A model generated the notes under the pieces. The model did not search any database and was not told where the DNA came from. It saw only the letters and a program-made list of their open reading frames with translations. A stretch of DNA of 7,640 nucleotides from Pseudomonadota bacterium (GTDB lineage Bacteria; Bdellovibrionota_C; UBA2361; OMIW01): the NCBI GenBank assembly GCA_900299205.1, contig OMIW01000026.1, positions 1 to 7,640 on the forward strand, given 5' to 3'. Both the position numbers and the translations under genes were made by a program. Positions 11 to 7,640 of the stretch are shown here, one piece after another. Each line of letters opens with the position of its first letter. The stretch's first letter is position 1.

Positions 11-2251
11 TTACCCCTTCGCGAACCGAGCCATCTTCTGATGAGTGCCGGGGTTCTTCACCAGCTCCACGAATACCTGACGCTCGAGAGCGTACAGATA
101 CTGCGGAGACACCACTGCTGCATCGGAGAGATCTCCTCCCGTAATCGCCCACGCGAGCCGACGTGCCAGATAGGCATCGTACTCGGTGATTTGACCACCG
201 GCGAGGAATCCTTCGATACCGACCTCAAGGACGGCTCGTCCATTTGCCCCGGGGACGAGGAATGGAGCACGGGGGGCTCGAGGGATATAGTTCCCTTCGG
301 CGAACTCCAAGACAGCTGCCTTTGAAGCTTCGAGAACATTGCCCGGCCGCATCTCAATCCGCGATGACGGCGAGAAGAATCCCGCATCGAGAGCCTGATG
401 AGCACTCGTCGTCACCTGACCCATCGCAATCCGCAAGAACGCATCACGAAGGAAGGGCGTCACTTTGCCCGCGTCGGCAACAGTGGTTGCTCCCGCTTGT
501 TGCGCGGCCCTCTGAGCAAAATGAGTCGTGCCACATCCTGCTGGGATTACACCCACCCCCATCTCGACAAGCCCGACATACGAGTCAGGTGCCGCAATGA
601 CCATGGGTGCTGCCATCAGCAATTCGGCACCTCCCCCAAGAGCTTTACCCGAAAGAGCCGCTACCACCGGCTTTTCGAACGAGTACAGCCGGTCGAAAAC
701 CGTCTGCAGCCGGTCGAGGACACCGTTGATACCGTTGAAATCTCCCGCTCGAATCGCTCCACCGATCTGCTTCAGGTTCGCACCTGCACAGAAGGTGTCA
801 CCTTCACCATCGCCGATCACGAGTCCAACATACTTGTCTGACATCGCCTGATCGAGCGCCCGATGGAGGCCGTCGATAACGTCCGAGGAGAGCGTCCTTC
901 CGGTTCCCGTCAGCAGAAACTGGAGCACGCCGTTACCGAGGTAACGGGTCGCAGAATCTGGACCCAGGGGATTCGGCGGCATGAGATTGGACCCACTTCG
1001 ACGGATCGGAATCGCAACGCTTGTTGATGTGGAGACCCACTGGGGCAGAGAGAGCCCATGGTCTCTCATTAGACCAGCGATCTTATTGAAACCGAGCCGA
1101 TTCCAGAGCTCGAAAGGACCCACCTCCCAGGCAAACCCTGCGCGAAGCGCACGGTCAATGTCGCCGGGAGTATCCGCCACCTCACCCACACGCCAGGCGC
1201 AATAGTTGAGAAAGCGGAGATAAAAGTCCGTAACGAACCCACCAACCCTATCGGTCCGCTCCATAAGGGCAGCGATGCGGTCAGCTGGATGTGGTGTCGA
1301 TTTAACCGAGGGCAGCTCTCCAAGATTATCCGCGGTCAGCGGTAGATAGCCACCGCTCGACGGATCGAAGGAAAGAATGACCCGTTTCTGCCGATCTTTG
1401 AACGAGAAGGCACCGTTCTGAGCAACCAACGCATCAAGAAACGCCGGTGGCTGAAACACATCCCGTTCGCGATCATCGGTAAGATTCGCGTAGAGGTACT
1501 TCGTCAGGTTGAGCATTGTCGGCAAACCGACAACATCAGCCGTTCGGAACGTACCGGATTTGGGACGCCCCACGAGCGGACCGGTCAGCACCTCAAGCTC
1601 AGGAATGGAGAACTCCCCCCGAGCAAGCGCCTGCATGACAAGCATCATCGCGTAGGCTCCCACGCGATTTCCCGCAAATCCCGGGCGATCCTTCGCCCTC
1701 ACGACCTCTTTCCCCAATCGATCGCGGAAGAAGTCCGCAATCTCGGTTCGCTCCTCGCCCGACACATGATCGGTGAAGATGAGCTCAAGGAGAGGTAGCC
1801 GGGTGGGATTGAAGAAATGAATACCACCAATGAAATGAGGCTTCATTGAGTCAGGCATCACCTCCTCAAGGCTCGCCATAAGAATGCCACTCGTGTTGGT
1901 GGCAACCTTGGTCTGAGGGCCGAGGAAAGGCGCGATCATTTCGAGGACCGAGGCTTTCACATCCAGCCTCTCGAGAACCACCTCAATAACAAGGTCGGCT
2001 TGAGAAATAGCCGCAAGATCATCGCGATAATTGCCACACCGCACGCGAGCGAGGTCTCCCGTACGGTAGAAGGATGGCCACGAGGCCTTGCGACACTGAG
2101 CCAAACCCTTCTCCGAACGCTCGTTCGGAGAGGATTCGCCCAGCAGATCCAGGAGCGATACGTTGCAACCTGCCGATGCAAACGCAGCGGCGATCTGGGC
2201 GCCCATGATTCCGGCACCAAGGATGACGACGGTCTTGGGATTGAATGACAT
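11..2251 (-). CDS. fadN: FadN-type 3-hydroxyacyl-CoA dehydrogenase / enoyl-CoA hydratase
   Basis: Fatty-acid beta-oxidation fusion enzyme of 746 aa. It should hydrate trans-2-enoyl-CoA and oxidise the L-3-hydroxyacyl-CoA to 3-ketoacyl-CoA with NAD+, in the cytoplasm. Seen: a Rossmann loop GAGIMG (residues 12-17), NTSGI (119-123), catalytic-His motif HFFNP (145-149), PGFAGNR (190-196) and a second dehydrogenase C-terminal block GFAWEVGPFELWN (372-384). The crotonase domain follows, with oxyanion loop CAGANL (488-493) and both catalytic glutamates, Glu543 in GGGAELL and Glu563 in GLVEMGVG. The dehydrogenase-then-hydratase order and the tail (TGGDLSD, then YLYALERQVF) match Bacillus FadN rather than E. 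coli FadB. It is somewhat shorter than FadN (about 790 aa) and lacks the usual GKPLRN-like end. ATG 2251 is chosen over the adjacent GTG 2254 because GGGAGG lies 5 nt upstream. No thiolase or acyl-CoA dehydrogenase gene is adjacent in the window. Function is well supported; substrate chain length is unknown. Confidence 0.93.
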   Translation of the reverse strand: MSFNPKTVVILGAGIMGAQIAAAFASAGCNVSLLDLLGESSPNERSEKGLAQCRKASWPSFYRTGDLARVRCGNYRDDLAAISQADLVIEVVLERLDVKASVLEMIAPFLGPQTKVATNTSGILMASLEEVMPDSMKPHFIGGIHFFNPTRLPLLELIFTDHVSGEERTEIADFFRDRLGKEVVRAKDRPGFAGNRVGAYAMMLVMQALARGEFSIPELEVLTGPLVGRPKSGTFRTADVVGLPTMLNLTKYLYANLTDDRERDVFQPPAFLDALVAQNGAFSFKDRQKRVILSFDPSSGGYLPLTADNLGELPSVKSTPHPADRIAALMERTDRVGGFVTDFYLRFLNYCAWRVGEVADTPGDIDRALRAGFAWEVGPFELWNRLGFNKIAGLMRDHGLSLPQWVSTSTSVAIPIRRSGSNLMPPNPLGPDSATRYLGNGVLQFLLTGTGRTLSSDVIDGLHRALDQAMSDKYVGLVIGDGEGDTFCAGANLKQIGGAIRAGDFNGINGVLDRLQTVFDRLYSFEKPVVAALSGKALGGGAELLMAAPMVIAAPDSYVGLVEMGVGVIPAGCGTTHFAQRAAQQAGATTVADAGKVTPFLRDAFLRIAMGQVTTSAHQALDAGFFSPSSRIEMRPGNVLEASKAAVLEFAEGNYIPRAPRAPFLVPGANGRAVLEVGIEGFLAGGQITEYDAYLARRLAWAITGGDLSDAAVVSPQYLYALERQVFVELVKNPGTHQKMARFAKG

Positions 2252-2256
2252 CACAA

Positions 2257-2663: not shown

Positions 2664-3353
2664 CTACCCCTGGGCTTCACGGGCCTGAATCGCTTCGAAT
2701 ACCGCCTGAAAGCAGGCGGGATGGGCGATGAGCCGATTGTGACCGATCACGGGAACCAGTCGGTTGGTACCGACGGGGAGCCTGCCATTGGTCGCCGGAA
2801 CGATGAGATGATCGAAAGGCGTCCACAACTGGGTGAACGTGGTCATTCCATCAGCCCGGACACACTCCTCAAGAGAACCGTGAAGGGAGCGAATCTGACC
2901 ACTCGTCGGTCGCATGTCCCTCACTCCCGGTGCCTGTTTCAGGTAGGCCATCACGGTACCCGCATGAGGCGAGGCGATCGAGATGACAGACTTGGTGAAC
3001 GATGCACCACCCCGCTGTTGGTAGGCGATCCGCGAGACCAGACCACCCATGCTGAATCCAACCAAGTGCACCCGAACCGAGGATGGTAGCGGGGCTTCTT
3101 CATCAAGGCGGAAATTGGCGTCCCGCGACCTCTCCTCTTCGATCCGGCCCAATACAAGCTGTCGAAGGGAGGACACCACCTGGTCAGCAAGGGTAACAAG
3201 GCTGCTTCGGCCATCGGCAGGGTACAGATCGATTCCATGAACCGATACGTCGCTTTCAAAGCGCGAGGCAAGGAACTCCGCTAACGGCCGCATCTGATGA
3301 TGGTCGTGGTTAAACCCATGAACCACCAAAATAGATGTTCGTGAACCTTCCAT
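2664..3353 (-). CDS. Alpha/beta hydrolase, lipase/esterase type
   Basis: A 229-aa protein with the layout of small lipase-like alpha/beta hydrolases that cleave carboxylic esters. Seen: the oxyanion-strand motif LVVHGFN (9-15), nucleophile elbow GFSMGG with Ser101, the segment SIASPHAGT (125-133) typical of lipase/PGAP1-like members, likely acid Asp181 in PFDHLIVP, and likely His205 in VIGHNRLIAHP. All three catalytic positions are present and in the expected order. There is no signal peptide or membrane segment, so it should act in the cytoplasm; the substrate is unknown. An in-frame TTG lies at 3362, but ATG 3353 is preferred. Neither has a clear Shine-Dalgarno, and the predicted promoter leaves a leader of only about 17 nt. 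The gene is divergent from the acyl-CoA ligase-like gene and ends in its own terminator. Confidence 0.88.
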   Translation of the reverse strand: MEGSRTSILVVHGFNHDHHQMRPLAEFLASRFESDVSVHGIDLYPADGRSSLVTLADQVVSSLRQLVLGRIEEERSRDANFRLDEEAPLPSSVRVHLVGFSMGGLVSRIAYQQRGGASFTKSVISIASPHAGTVMAYLKQAPGVRDMRPTSGQIRSLHGSLEECVRADGMTTFTQLWTPFDHLIVPATNGRLPVGTNRLVPVIGHNRLIAHPACFQAVFEAIQAREAQG

Positions 3354-3511: not shown

Positions 3512-3516
3512 GAAGG
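3512..3516 (+). promoter_or_regulatory. Shine-Dalgarno of the ligase-like gene
   Basis: GAAGG followed by a 10-base T-rich spacer precedes ATG 3527. It decides that start over an in-frame GTG at 3488, which has no such site and would add 13 unremarkable residues. Confidence 0.55.
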
Positions 3517-3526
3517 TTTTTTCACT

Positions 3527-5653
3527 ATGACAGACACACCAACGCCGCAAACTCTAGCGGCTGCGCTCGTACGAGCAGTGTCAACCTATCGCGATCTTCC
3601 GTGCATTACCGCGCTTGCTCACCGCAAGGCCGCATCACGAAGTGATCGGTTTGAGAGCTACACCTTTGGCGAATGTGGCGCCGCCATGTATCGGCTCGCG
3701 CACTATTTCCGAGCGTGTGGTCTTCAGCCGGGTGATCGGGTGATGGTCCTCGCGGGCAATTGCCCGCAGACCGTTTGGGCTCACGCCGCAGCAGCTCTTG
3801 CTCGGGTAGCCATCGTCGCTCCCTACATGGGTGAGACGGCTCATGAGATCCACCACCAGCTCCTTGAGAGCGCTCCCCGACTCCTGATCGTGGAGAATTA
3901 TCGACTTCTCGAGAAATGTGGCGATCTCGCTAACAGCCATCTCATCGGTGTGCTCACTATGAGGCCGATTCCAGCCAAGGCACGGTTTCACGGCCCTCCG
4001 GTGTTGGAGATTGACCAGGTCCTCACATCGGATCGGTATTCCTCGAATGAGCCCAACTGGCTCGCCGAGATAGAACCATCCGACGATGCGCTGATCCTGT
4101 TCACGGCGACAAAGCACGGCTACACCCGCGGGGTTGTTCACACTCAGGCGAGTGTTCTAGCAGACATCAATCTGCTTCAGGGACGTCGGCTCGCCCGCCC
4201 AGGCCTGCAAGCTGCGTGTATTCTCCCGTTTGGGCACATGTACCCCATCTACTTGATGTGGCTCTTCATGACCTCAGGGATGAACACCACTTTGCCGAGC
4301 GTCCCAGGAGAACATCCGAAGATCGACGTGGGTGGCATGGTCCAATGTCTGAAAGAGGGTGATGCCACCGTCGTTCCGCTTGTGCCGTACTTCCTCGACC
4401 TGATGAGAGAGGAGGTTGAAAAACGGTATGTGGAACCGGTCGCTTTGCTCCTCGGCCTTGTTCGCAAACCGAACCTTGCGTATGCGTGTCCGATTCGGGT
4501 CCCCTATCGAGTATCTCTCGGGATGCCTCGATGGAACTTTATCGGATTCCTCCAGTTCCGGTCGATCGCGATGGCACGAGAGCGGAAGTCGACTCCCGAT
4601 TCGCTTCGAGAGATCGCACAGGCGTTCTCATCCTTTGTGGCAAATCTTGCAACGACGGTATCCGTCGCCGCAGCGGTCGAATGTCACGAGGCGATCCGCG
4701 AAATCACCGGTGGCACCTACCCTCCCGAGGTATGCGCCATCGAGTATCGCAGCGGCCGACCCCTCATTGTCCACTGGCTCTGGCGATACCTTCTCGCTCC
4801 GATAATCTACCTCCTTACGGGAGAGATTCGGCGGCAGATTCGGCGAGCCTGCTTCGGCAATGGGTGCACCGATCTGATCGTTGGTGGAAGCCGACTATTT
4901 TTCCGAACTCAACAGTTCTGGGAAGCACTCGGCATTCGGGTGTCTGAGGGGTACGGATTCACTCAGGGAGGCATCACCCACCTCGAGCGGTGGCGTCCGT
5001 TTGAACGACACCCCGAGGTTGTAGGGCCACCACTTGGCGAGGCGATCCAGCAGCGGATAGACCCCGATACCGGCGAGCTCTTGCTCTCTTCACCCACCCT
5101 CTTCTCGAGATACCTCACGGGGGATCCCGAGGACGATGAGTTTGTGACGATTGATGGGCGAATCTGGTATCGGACAACTGACACCGTTCAGCTGGTCGAT
5201 ACCGACGGAACTATCCGGATCTCCGGTAACGTAAGTCGGATGTACAACTCGCTTGGCGGAGAAAAGGTATATCCCTTTGCAACCGCAGAGCCAGCGCTTG
5301 ATGCGTGTCCATATGTGAATCGATCTCTCGTGTGGGGGGCTGGTCAGCCGTTCAACGTCGCGATCATTCACCCGGATATCACCCGACTCGAGCCACTGGC
5401 CGTTGAGCGAGGGATGTCAGCGCAAGAGCTGAGTCGCTCGGAAGAGTTCATTCGGATCGTGATGGAGTACATCTCCAGTCACGTCAATCCGCTTGTACCA
5501 CTCCCTGCGCGCATTCGCTCGGTCATAGTCTCACATACTGAATTTAGTGAAGCCGCGGGCTTCCTTAACTCAGATGGCTCACTCAACACCCTCGCGGTGC
5601 TGGTAGCCCATGGTCCTGACCTCGCTCAGCTCTACAGGCGACAACTCCTGTAA
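3527..5653 (+). CDS. Long-chain acyl-CoA synthetase-like protein with degenerate active-site motifs
   Basis: A 708-aa member of the ANL (adenylate-forming) superfamily, most like long-chain acyl-CoA synthetases in length and in the region ALGIRVSEGYGFTQ (467-480). Intact members join fatty acids to CoA through an acyl-AMP. The motifs are recognisable but eroded. The P-loop (A3, usually TSGTTG..PKG) reads TATKHGYTRG (193-202). A5 ends YGFTQ instead of YGxTE. A7 is WYRTTD (547-552) instead of xxTGD, with Asp552 kept. A8 has GN (567-568) in place of GR, while GGEKVYP (577-583) is kept. At the C-terminus, where TLK.KR-type sequence with the catalytic lysine is expected, it reads GSLNTLAVLVAHGP (684-697), with Ala690 at the apparent lysine position. 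The frame is long and uninterrupted, so it is not an obvious pseudogene. A hydrophobic stretch (about 416-431) may touch the membrane. It could be a divergent enzyme, an acyl-binding pseudoenzyme or an AMP ligase with altered chemistry. Family assignment is sure; activity is doubtful. Confidence 0.85.
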   Translation: MTDTPTPQTLAAALVRAVSTYRDLPCITALAHRKAASRSDRFESYTFGECGAAMYRLAHYFRACGLQPGDRVMVLAGNCPQTVWAHAAAALARVAIVAPYMGETAHEIHHQLLESAPRLLIVENYRLLEKCGDLANSHLIGVLTMRPIPAKARFHGPPVLEIDQVLTSDRYSSNEPNWLAEIEPSDDALILFTATKHGYTRGVVHTQASVLADINLLQGRRLARPGLQAACILPFGHMYPIYLMWLFMTSGMNTTLPSVPGEHPKIDVGGMVQCLKEGDATVVPLVPYFLDLMREEVEKRYVEPVALLLGLVRKPNLAYACPIRVPYRVSLGMPRWNFIGFLQFRSIAMARERKSTPDSLREIAQAFSSFVANLATTVSVAAAVECHEAIREITGGTYPPEVCAIEYRSGRPLIVHWLWRYLLAPIIYLLTGEIRRQIRRACFGNGCTDLIVGGSRLFFRTQQFWEALGIRVSEGYGFTQGGITHLERWRPFERHPEVVGPPLGEAIQQRIDPDTGELLLSSPTLFSRYLTGDPEDDEFVTIDGRIWYRTTDTVQLVDTDGTIRISGNVSRMYNSLGGEKVYPFATAEPALDACPYVNRSLVWGAGQPFNVAIIHPDITRLEPLAVERGMSAQELSRSEEFIRIVMEYISSHVNPLVPLPARIRSVIVSHTEFSEAAGFLNSDGSLNTLAVLVAHGPDLAQLYRRQLL

Positions 5654-5697
5654 ACGAACTGCACCGATTCACCATGAAAGAAGGTTTCGTCCTTTAG

Positions 5698-5729
5698 GGG
5701 AAGGTGGCCACTATCACCTTCCCTTTTTT
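5698..5729 (+). terminator. Intrinsic terminator of the ligase-like gene
   Basis: GGGAAGGTG (5698-5706) and CACCTTCCC (5715-5723) form a perfect 9-bp stem with an 8-base loop, followed at once by TTTTTT (5724-5729). It lies 44 bases after the stop codon at 5653. On the minus strand the same hairpin has no T-run downstream, so it should terminate mainly plus-strand transcription. The T-run overlaps the stop codon of the convergent gene (5728-5730). Confidence 0.9.
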
Positions 5730-7161
5730 ACCGCACGCCGACCCATCGATCCCCGCGCAATCGGGAAAAAGAGAATCCTACAACTATCGCACACAGCCCC
5801 AGAAAATGCGCGAGATACGGGATTGGATAGAAAGTCTCCATCGTAAAAGATGCGATCTGGAGGCCGATAAGGGCACATAGTACCGGCTTTGTTCCCCTTT
5901 CAAATCGAATTAAGGTCGTCATAAGGAAGCTGACTATTCCACCATAAACAAGAAAGCCGAGAATCCCCAGTTCAAAGAGGTACTGCAACGGCGTCATGTG
6001 GCAACTTCGATTCGGCGTTATGGGGTATGAGGCACCAAGCCCTGCGCCAACAAGAAAGGTGCTTGGGTGTTCCATCATGAAGGTGGCATACGATTTCCAG
6101 ATACCACCCCGTCCGCTCAGATTATCTCCCTCGGTTGCAGCAAGAGTCGTTTGTTGTCTCTCCAAAGTAGCGCTAACCGGAGTCCTCGACTCACCAAAAA
6201 GGGCAACACATACCAAGGCAACGGGCAATGTTGCGACAAGAAGCTTTGGACTCCGGACAAATTGGGTCGAAAGAAAAAAGATCAGAGCTGCAAATCCCGC
6301 CCGCGATTCAGTAACAAACGACGCGACGACAGCCGTTAACAGGACCACCCCACTCCACAGACTCACCCGCATCGGCACAATCGCAAAACGAAAGGCCGTC
6401 AGGGCCAGAATCTGCACACCCGCATACGCATGATTATAGCCAACAAATCCAATACCGCGTCCATCATCTGGAAACTTCTCTTTGAGGGGATACGCCATCC
6501 ACGGGCCAGCGGCGTCACGGGTCAGCGGAAGGTGCGCAACGAGCGATCCGAGAGGAATCAAGCCAAAAAAGGTGAGTAATACCCCAACACAGGTAATAAC
6601 GAGAACCAGATCAATGATGATCCGCAGCCGACTAATTCGTTCCGGTGTCCACACCATCTGCGATATCGCCCAGAAAAGGATCGCGAACTCAACGAAACGG
6701 CGAAGAAAATAGGCACCATATAATAGGGACTCTCTGCCCGAATGACTGACCCAGGTGTGAAGCAGCCCAAGAGATGCAACGCAGACGAGTGCGATAACAA
6801 GCGCGACACCCAGCCGGTGATATCGGTTCATCGCTCGTTTCGATCGATAGCCCCCTAACGCGACGAGCACCACCGGCACCAAACCGATGTCCGCAAGGGA
6901 TGGCCAAAGAGCCCACGAGGGACCAACTGCCGCTATCGGAATCATAAACGACTGAGAAAGGAGGTAGAGGCAAGTAAAAAAGAAAAGTGGACCAGTTTTC
7001 TTGATTGCGCGTCGTTGCCGGTCCGATGGGGATGAAGGAGAGAAAATCGGCCTCTTTACACCGCTAAGACCACCGTACGAACACGAGGGAGCTATACATC
7101 GAGGAACGTCCTCTCTACACATTCCCGCCGCGCAACCCGCACCATCTCGAATCGTCTCCAT
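5728..7161 (-). CDS. O-antigen ligase / polysaccharide polymerase-like membrane protein
   Basis: A 477-aa multi-spanning inner-membrane protein of the O-antigen ligase (Wzy/WaaL-like) superfamily, which polymerises or transfers undecaprenyl-linked glycans on the periplasmic side. Seen: a soluble N-terminus of about 56 residues, then about ten hydrophobic segments, the first at about 57-77. The family region includes VTESRAGF (Arg287), SGRGGIW (Arg351), a GAGLG turn (372-376), CHMTPLQYLFELGILG (His388) and closing membrane helices. The usual HN pair reads HM here. The start is supported by GGGG 5 nt upstream and by a 9-base gap after the flippase stop. The N-terminus contains four cysteines (10, 15, 22, 27), which is odd for this family. 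Hand counts over four 60-base lines of this gene give about 50% G+C, lower than its neighbours. Ligase and polymerase cannot be told apart from sequence alone. Confidence 0.85.
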   Translation of the reverse strand: METIRDGAGCAAGMCREDVPRCIAPSCSYGGLSGVKRPIFSPSSPSDRQRRAIKKTGPLFFFTCLYLLSQSFMIPIAAVGPSWALWPSLADIGLVPVVLVALGGYRSKRAMNRYHRLGVALVIALVCVASLGLLHTWVSHSGRESLLYGAYFLRRFVEFAILFWAISQMVWTPERISRLRIIIDLVLVITCVGVLLTFFGLIPLGSLVAHLPLTRDAAGPWMAYPLKEKFPDDGRGIGFVGYNHAYAGVQILALTAFRFAIVPMRVSLWSGVVLLTAVVASFVTESRAGFAALIFFLSTQFVRSPKLLVATLPVALVCVALFGESRTPVSATLERQQTTLAATEGDNLSGRGGIWKSYATFMMEHPSTFLVGAGLGASYPITPNRSCHMTPLQYLFELGILGFLVYGGIVSFLMTTLIRFERGTKPVLCALIGLQIASFTMETFYPIPYLAHFLGLCAIVVGFSFSRLRGDRWVGVR

Positions 7162-7166
7162 ATCTT

Positions 7167-7172
7167 CCCCTC
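7167..7172 (-). promoter_or_regulatory. Ribosome binding site overlapping the flippase stop codon
   Basis: The minus strand reads TGAGGGG-AAGAT-ATG. The GAGGGG Shine-Dalgarno shares bases with the upstream TGA stop (7173-7171), and the spacing to ATG 7161 is 5 nt. This arrangement suggests translational coupling of the two membrane proteins. Confidence 0.65.
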
Positions 7173-7640
7173 ATCCTGGAGCCACCTCCCTCATCCCTCG
7201 GACGACCATCACCAACACCATCGCCCGACCAACAAGGGCGACAAGCTGACCTATGACGAGGGTCCAACACGCTCCGGTGATACCCCCTGTCGGGATCAAG
7301 AGCCACGACGCGATCACTGTCACACCGAGCGAAGCCCCCGCAGGAATCACCTGAGCACGAAATTCCCGCGCAGCCGTAATACCGTACTCGATAAAGGTCG
7401 CCAGATACTGGAGTGCGGCCGCGAACATCACGATGGTCAAAGCGCCACCGTAATCTCCATATTCAGCTGTGTACAGCGATCGAAGCACCAATCCGCCCGC
7501 ACCCACGGCACCTGCCATTCCTCCGATCCCAACCACCGCCCCGAAAAGACAAAGCTTACCGAGCAATCGAAGATATTCCTGCCGGTCCCCACCCGCGGAG
7601 AGTCGCGCAAGTCGCGGGCTCGCCGACTGCCCCACTGCAG
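7171..7640 (-). CDS. Wzx-type polysaccharide flippase, C-terminal part (cut by window edge)
   Basis: The last 156 or so codons of a membrane transporter of the oligosaccharide flippase (MOP/MATE-like) family, which moves lipid-linked glycan units across the inner membrane. Seen: GQSASPRLARLSAGGD near the right edge, a phrase that in this family follows the membrane helices of the first half, then about four hydrophobic helices separated by YTAEYGDYGG and REFRAQVIP. The frame is open to the window edge, so the beginning lies outside. The GTG at 7635 is internal, not the start. It sits 9 bases upstream of the O-antigen ligase-like gene on the same strand, which supports a surface-polysaccharide operon. 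The family is inferred from these phrases and the helix pattern. Confidence 0.8.
   Translation of the reverse strand, partial: AVGQSASPRLARLSAGGDRQEYLRLLGKLCLFGAVVGIGGMAGAVGAGGLVLRSLYTAEYGDYGGALTIVMFAAALQYLATFIEYGITAAREFRAQVIPAGASLGVTVIASWLLIPTGGITGACWTLVIGQLVALVGRAMVLVMVVRGMREVAPG

Follow-up and report, generated by a model that had tools for sequence, protein, structure and literature searches.

The gene at positions 3,527 to 5,653 of the window (the whole stretch of DNA analysed, that is contig C26 with its 7,640 bases, from a metagenome-assembled genome of 2.45 Mb) encodes a protein that, as judged by its sequence, belongs to the ANL superfamily and has jointly lost the phosphate-loop residues, the Mg-binding glutamate, the hinge/ribose arginine and the adenylation lysine, with a normal FadD present elsewhere in the genome. 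The protein is probably a pseudoenzyme derived from FadD that no longer adenylates, perhaps maintained as a binding protein or partner. The window contains the following features.

11 to 2,254, minus strand: second FadN-type 3-hydroxyacyl-CoA dehydrogenase/enoyl-CoA hydratase (NF052272, 439 bits; catalytic motifs intact)
2,664 to 3,353 (from the ATG), minus strand: small, divergent cytosolic alpha/beta hydrolase (Palm_thioest/PGAP1-like) with a GFSMGG nucleophile motif
3,512 to 3,516, plus strand: Shine-Dalgarno-like GAAGG, read from the sequence
3,527 to 5,653, plus strand: ANL-fold acyl-CoA synthetase (FadD)-like protein of 708 amino acids (Pfam, alignment, AlphaFold, PDB matches)
4,103 to 4,132, plus strand: A3 (P-loop), residues 193-202, TATKHGYTRG in place of TSGTTGxPKG (alignment)
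4,457 to 4,762, plus strand: helical segment of about 100 residues (residues 311-412), for the most part an insertion that canonical relatives lack, pLDDT mostly below 60
4,949 to 4,966, plus strand: A5, residues 475-480, GYGFTQ in place of GYGLTE (alignment)
5,171 to 5,236, plus strand: A7, RTTD (residues 549-552) in place of HTGD, and A8, GNVS (residues 567-570) in place of GRKK (alignment)
5,561 to 5,590, plus strand: A10, residues 679-688, FLNSDGSLNT in place of LLTPTxKxxR (alignment)
5,696 to 5,731, plus strand: intrinsic terminator with a 12-pair stem, a 6-base loop and T6 (fold -18.5 kcal/mol, z -3.9)
5,728 to 7,161, minus strand: Wzy_C-type membrane protein (O-antigen ligase/polymerase-like)

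The ANL-like gene is the sole gene on its own strand and is separated by about 170 bases from the divergent hydrolase gene. A purine-rich run was noticed at 2,540-2,590, inside the 410-base gap between the FadN and hydrolase genes. The Wzy_C-type gene is followed by the end of a further gene, probably for a membrane protein and without a Pfam match; the G+C content of this part of the window (5,728-7,638) is lower and its codon usage is unlike that of the fad genes.

Membership of the ANL superfamily follows from the match to the Pfam AMP-binding profile (PF00501), which scored 123.4 bits (cut-off 29.9) and covered profile positions 13-384. Structure prediction, one of the checks proposed in the original prediction, gave a complete two-domain ANL model (pLDDT 83, pTM 0.82) when AlphaFold was supplied with an alignment of 48 canonical relatives, and the best PDB matches of this model were ANL enzymes without exception (Z 42-46, with 350-490 residues matched). 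The highest of these, FadD13/FACL13 of Mycobacterium tuberculosis and LC-FACS of Thermus thermophilus (Z 43.6-46.2, 18-21% identity), are both catalytic enzymes. The model was poor solely around the inserted segment at about residues 311-412. AlphaFold did not produce a confident model without the alignment (pLDDT 37.5), so that the predicted fold partly rests on the canonical rows; this failure is uninformative and not contrary evidence. The protein resembles the long-chain fatty acid-CoA ligase FadD (PF00501) in its domain order, its predicted fold, the A4 His, the A5 Tyr, Gly and Thr and the A7 Asp. It differs from FadD in being only about 24% identical, in lacking A3 and the Glu of A5, the Gly of A7, the Arg of A8 and the Lys of A10, in its low lysine content and in an extra insertion of about 80-100 residues.

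To compare the catalytic motifs, the protein was aligned with 30 canonical FadDs from the phylum, one of them being the FadD encoded on contig C108 of the same genome. The alignment had no gaps at A3, A5 and A8, and at the motif columns the canonical rows showed little or no variation. All the altered motifs that had been read from the sequence at the outset (TATKHGYTRG, YGFTQ, TTD and GN) were recovered. Relative to the canonical FadDs the substitutions are S194A, G195T, T196K, T197H, P200T, K201R, E480Q, G551T, R568N and K570S. The P-loop pattern of a competent FadD, [ST]SGTTGxPKG, is hence replaced by TATKHGYTRG; its Mg-binding A5 Glu, its A7 TGD and its A8 Arg are absent by virtue of E480Q, G551T and R568N. 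At A10, where FLNSDGSLNTLAVLVAHGP begins at residue 679, the column of the adenylation lysine is filled by Ser685. After residue 580 the ANL-like protein has 0 lysines, where the canonical rows have 3-15. Since there is no lysine beyond this residue, the loss of the A10 lysine, already claimed in the original prediction, is independent of the alignment, and none can be placed in A10. The protein is lysine-poor and not lysine-free (1.4% lysine versus 2.75-8.9%); the neighbouring hydrolase is also lysine-poor (0.87%).

A displaced A10 lysine was considered as well, as a misaligned A10 makes the OleC domain (beta-lactone synthetase) encoded on contig C98 of this genome look lysine-less; it was ruled out by the lack of any lysine beyond residue 580. 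OleC is likewise of the ANL family, but unlike the ANL-like protein it has its lysine, in RHNAKIFR, and normal A3, A5, A7 and A8 motifs. On C98 (L047, 170-5163) genes for an OleA-like protein (FabH-type), an OleB-OleC fusion (alpha/beta hydrolase plus AMP-binding) and an OleD-like protein (3Beta_HSD/epimerase) are consecutive, and these apparently represent a head-to-head hydrocarbon (olefin) pathway in the lineage.

The effect of equivalent mutations has been described for 4-chlorobenzoate:CoA ligase, in which mutants are 1,000-fold lower for the A3 Gly, 50-fold lower for the A5 Glu and 100-fold lower for the A8 Arg (PMC8388817). The positions hit in these published mutants are all lost together in the ANL-like protein. 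We infer that acyl-AMP would not be made at a useful rate, and the sequence gives good support for a loss of adenylation. An active, though very divergent, acyl-CoA synthetase that works with non-standard residues would agree with the full ANL domain order, with the predicted fold and with the retention of T193, G198, H237, T479 and D552, and the function of the lost residues might in principle be taken over by others. However, five classes of catalytic residue would have to be dispensed with at once, several of which singly cost 50- to 1,000-fold or abolish adenylation, and this explanation is considered highly improbable.

The original prediction called the motifs eroded. This holds for the loss of individual residues; it does not hold in the sense that the motifs are eroded beyond the rest of the protein. 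Invariants were defined as the 120 columns with a conservation of 95% or more among canonical FadDs; of these the ANL-like protein had kept 17/40 within the motifs versus 31/80 elsewhere (p 0.70), and the idea that the motifs as a whole are more eroded was rejected. Compared with the remaining distant ANL proteins that the genome encodes, it kept fewer of the A3 invariants (4/11 versus 6-10/11) and a larger share of the non-motif invariants (0.39 versus 0.24-0.30). This pattern, seen in a single sequence, would fit a lost selection on catalysis combined with some retained selection on the fold.

The retained motif residues are T193 and G198 of A3, H237 of A4, Y476 and T479 of A5, and D552 of A7. 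The ribose-binding Asp and the ATP-stabilising aromatic residue (PMC11253843) are among them. From these few residues it would appear that the pocket has lost its phosphate, metal and lysine side and has preserved some of its adenosine and acyl side. As both domains and part of the adenine/ribose/acyl-chain pocket (T193, G198, H237, Y476, T479 and D552) persist, ligand binding may persist too, and the ligand could be a nucleotide, an acyl-adenylate or a fatty acyl group. With few binding residues retained, and with motifs kept no better than other invariants, even such binding is no more than tentative.

The main rival to the pseudoenzyme reading is an altered chemistry, in which the protein would not adenylate and yet would act on acyl-AMP, acyl-CoA or another acyl substrate within the ANL scaffold by means of new residues (e.g. 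K196 and H197, where the P-loop used to be). A3 has indeed been swapped for the charged TATKHGYTRG of equal length and not deleted, the A4 His and the A7 Asp are still present, and the adjoining lipid enzymes look active. Moreover, A10-lysine mutants of known enzymes retain the second half-reaction (PMC11255334). Yet the A8 Arg is gone too, and a family of homologues with the new residues, which would be a sign of their conservation, was not found, so that this rival appears rather unlikely. The original prediction had proposed either a pseudoenzyme or an enzyme of altered chemistry. The absence of normal adenylation that both imply is favoured, whereas the sensor or partner role that it added is conjecture; a binding or partner function remains the one that we infer for the pseudoenzyme.

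Relatives that share the altered motifs were sought as the original prediction had advised, and none with TATKHG was found. The best matches anywhere were canonical FadDs, with 20-32% identity over the matched parts, and the best overall FadD matches scored 120-134 bits. An alignment-based scan yielded at least 80 loci, and all those listed had canonical motifs. The altered motif set was present in 0 of about 100 relatives examined; the few that miss single motif patterns are partial sequences or pattern variants. The phylum is small, and an orthologue of the ANL-like protein was not found in the 45 genomes of it that were examined. Single-sequence scans of genome contigs and IMG/VR, which require exact 8-residue words and so detect close kin only, revealed no relative. 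Nor was one detected at E 1e-22 to 1e-24 in 377-396 genomes sampled from three other phyla, which in a search lacking a positive control is weak evidence, and plasmids gave partial matches only, below 30%. In a tree of 55 proteins the ANL-like protein sits on an end branch of 6.1 changes per site; the median is 0.64. The free tree nested the gene in the FadDs of the phylum; placement outside them was not rejected (p-AU 0.55), and therefore no claim is made on a duplication.

Closest homologues with normal motifs had been named in the original prediction as a pointer to recent decay or sequence error. The closest homologues do have normal motifs; however, the identity of about 24%, the branch of 6.1 and the open frame oppose both. 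The 708 open codons, from the ATG at 3,527 to the stop that is included at 5,653, were confirmed. GAAGG lies about 10 nt upstream of the ATG and is a plausible Shine-Dalgarno sequence. The terminator, which was seen by folding and missed by a pattern scan, is real: its 12 pairs span 5,696-5,725 and are followed by T6. Codon usage of the frame correlated with that of native genes at r = 0.85, compared with 0.23-0.61 for the other five frames. This is on par with fadD, fadN and fadA (r = 0.86-0.88), whose own values are somewhat inflated because they are part of the reference set. In simulations of neutral drift, in which the paralogue was mutated down to 22% identity, a mean of 22 stops arose, and 0/300 runs were stop-free from 80% identity down.

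The stop-free frame at about 24% identity, the host-like codons and the neutral simulation suggest that the ANL-like gene has been kept. The coding frame has thus been shown, if indirectly, to be intact through a very large divergence, and frame integrity and codon usage may point to purifying selection. Given the codon-usage correlation and the stops expected under neutral drift, the gene is poorly explained by chance or sequencing error, and the lack of stops at this identity, the host-like codon usage and the terminator make recent decay very unlikely. A non-functional gene in early decay, or a redundant fadD copy that has survived by chance once selection on it was relaxed, would be in keeping with the existence of a canonical FadD in the genome, with a gene known from one genome only, and with the similar survival of motif and non-motif invariants that is expected once catalysis is unselected. 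As the frame has remained open over 708 codons, the codons are as native as those of the fad genes and the terminator is strong, this explanation is regarded as unlikely.

The neighbours of the gene were also compared with paralogues in the genome, which has a canonical fadA-fadN pair on contig C160. The FadN of the window is a second copy, 45% identical to that on C160 (L042, 4620-6998), with intact dehydrogenase and hydratase catalytic contexts; the contig ends beside it, where any following thiolase gene would lie. The hydrolase of the window is 41% identical over its C-terminal 134 residues to a paralogue on contig C122, and the Ser, Asp and His contexts are conserved in both. This supports the earlier claim of a divergent hydrolase with intact nucleophile, acid and histidine. 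The hydrolase (2,664-3,353) and the small cytosolic hydrolase of L043 (2994-3623) both carry GAPGxRDMRPxS and GxSMGG. Among the other 44 genomes of the phylum a FadN-type match was absent at E 1e-30 and a comparable hydrolase match at the thresholds used. This, and the fact that the window makes up an entire small contig of a metagenome bin, could point to an assembly error, contamination or a foreign contig. However, the bin carries the paralogues of both proteins on C160 and C122, the codon usage of the ANL-like gene equals that of the fad genes of the bin, and the gene would be equally odd even if foreign, which makes such an origin extremely improbable.

The ANL-like gene sits in a small lipid-catabolism neighbourhood, of which the other members look active. 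As a pseudoenzyme, its product might be a non-catalytic partner or a ligand-responsive regulator, and it might regulate either the adjoining lipid-catabolism genes (the hydrolase and the second FadN) or the genuine FadD. A more specific proposal can be made only tentatively, namely that of a lineage-specific ANL pseudoenzyme, converted from a fatty acyl-CoA synthetase, that has discarded the phosphate side of the pocket but preserved its adenine/ribose side and that, as a ligand-binding sensor or non-catalytic partner, controls the cluster of hydrolase and second FadN.

With its catalytic residues lost, its frame kept and an active paralogue in the genome, the ANL-like protein resembles pseudoenzymes of other families. 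A narrow search of the literature found no described pseudoenzyme among ANL acyl-CoA synthetases. Bacteria carry many acyl-CoA synthetases, and if judged by its family match only, this gene would be labelled a fatty acid-CoA ligase despite having lost most of the catalytic residues. The retained residues point to the part of the pocket that is worth testing. If ligands are bound without turnover, the protein would be a bacterial case in which an acyl-CoA synthetase fold has been reused as a regulator or partner.
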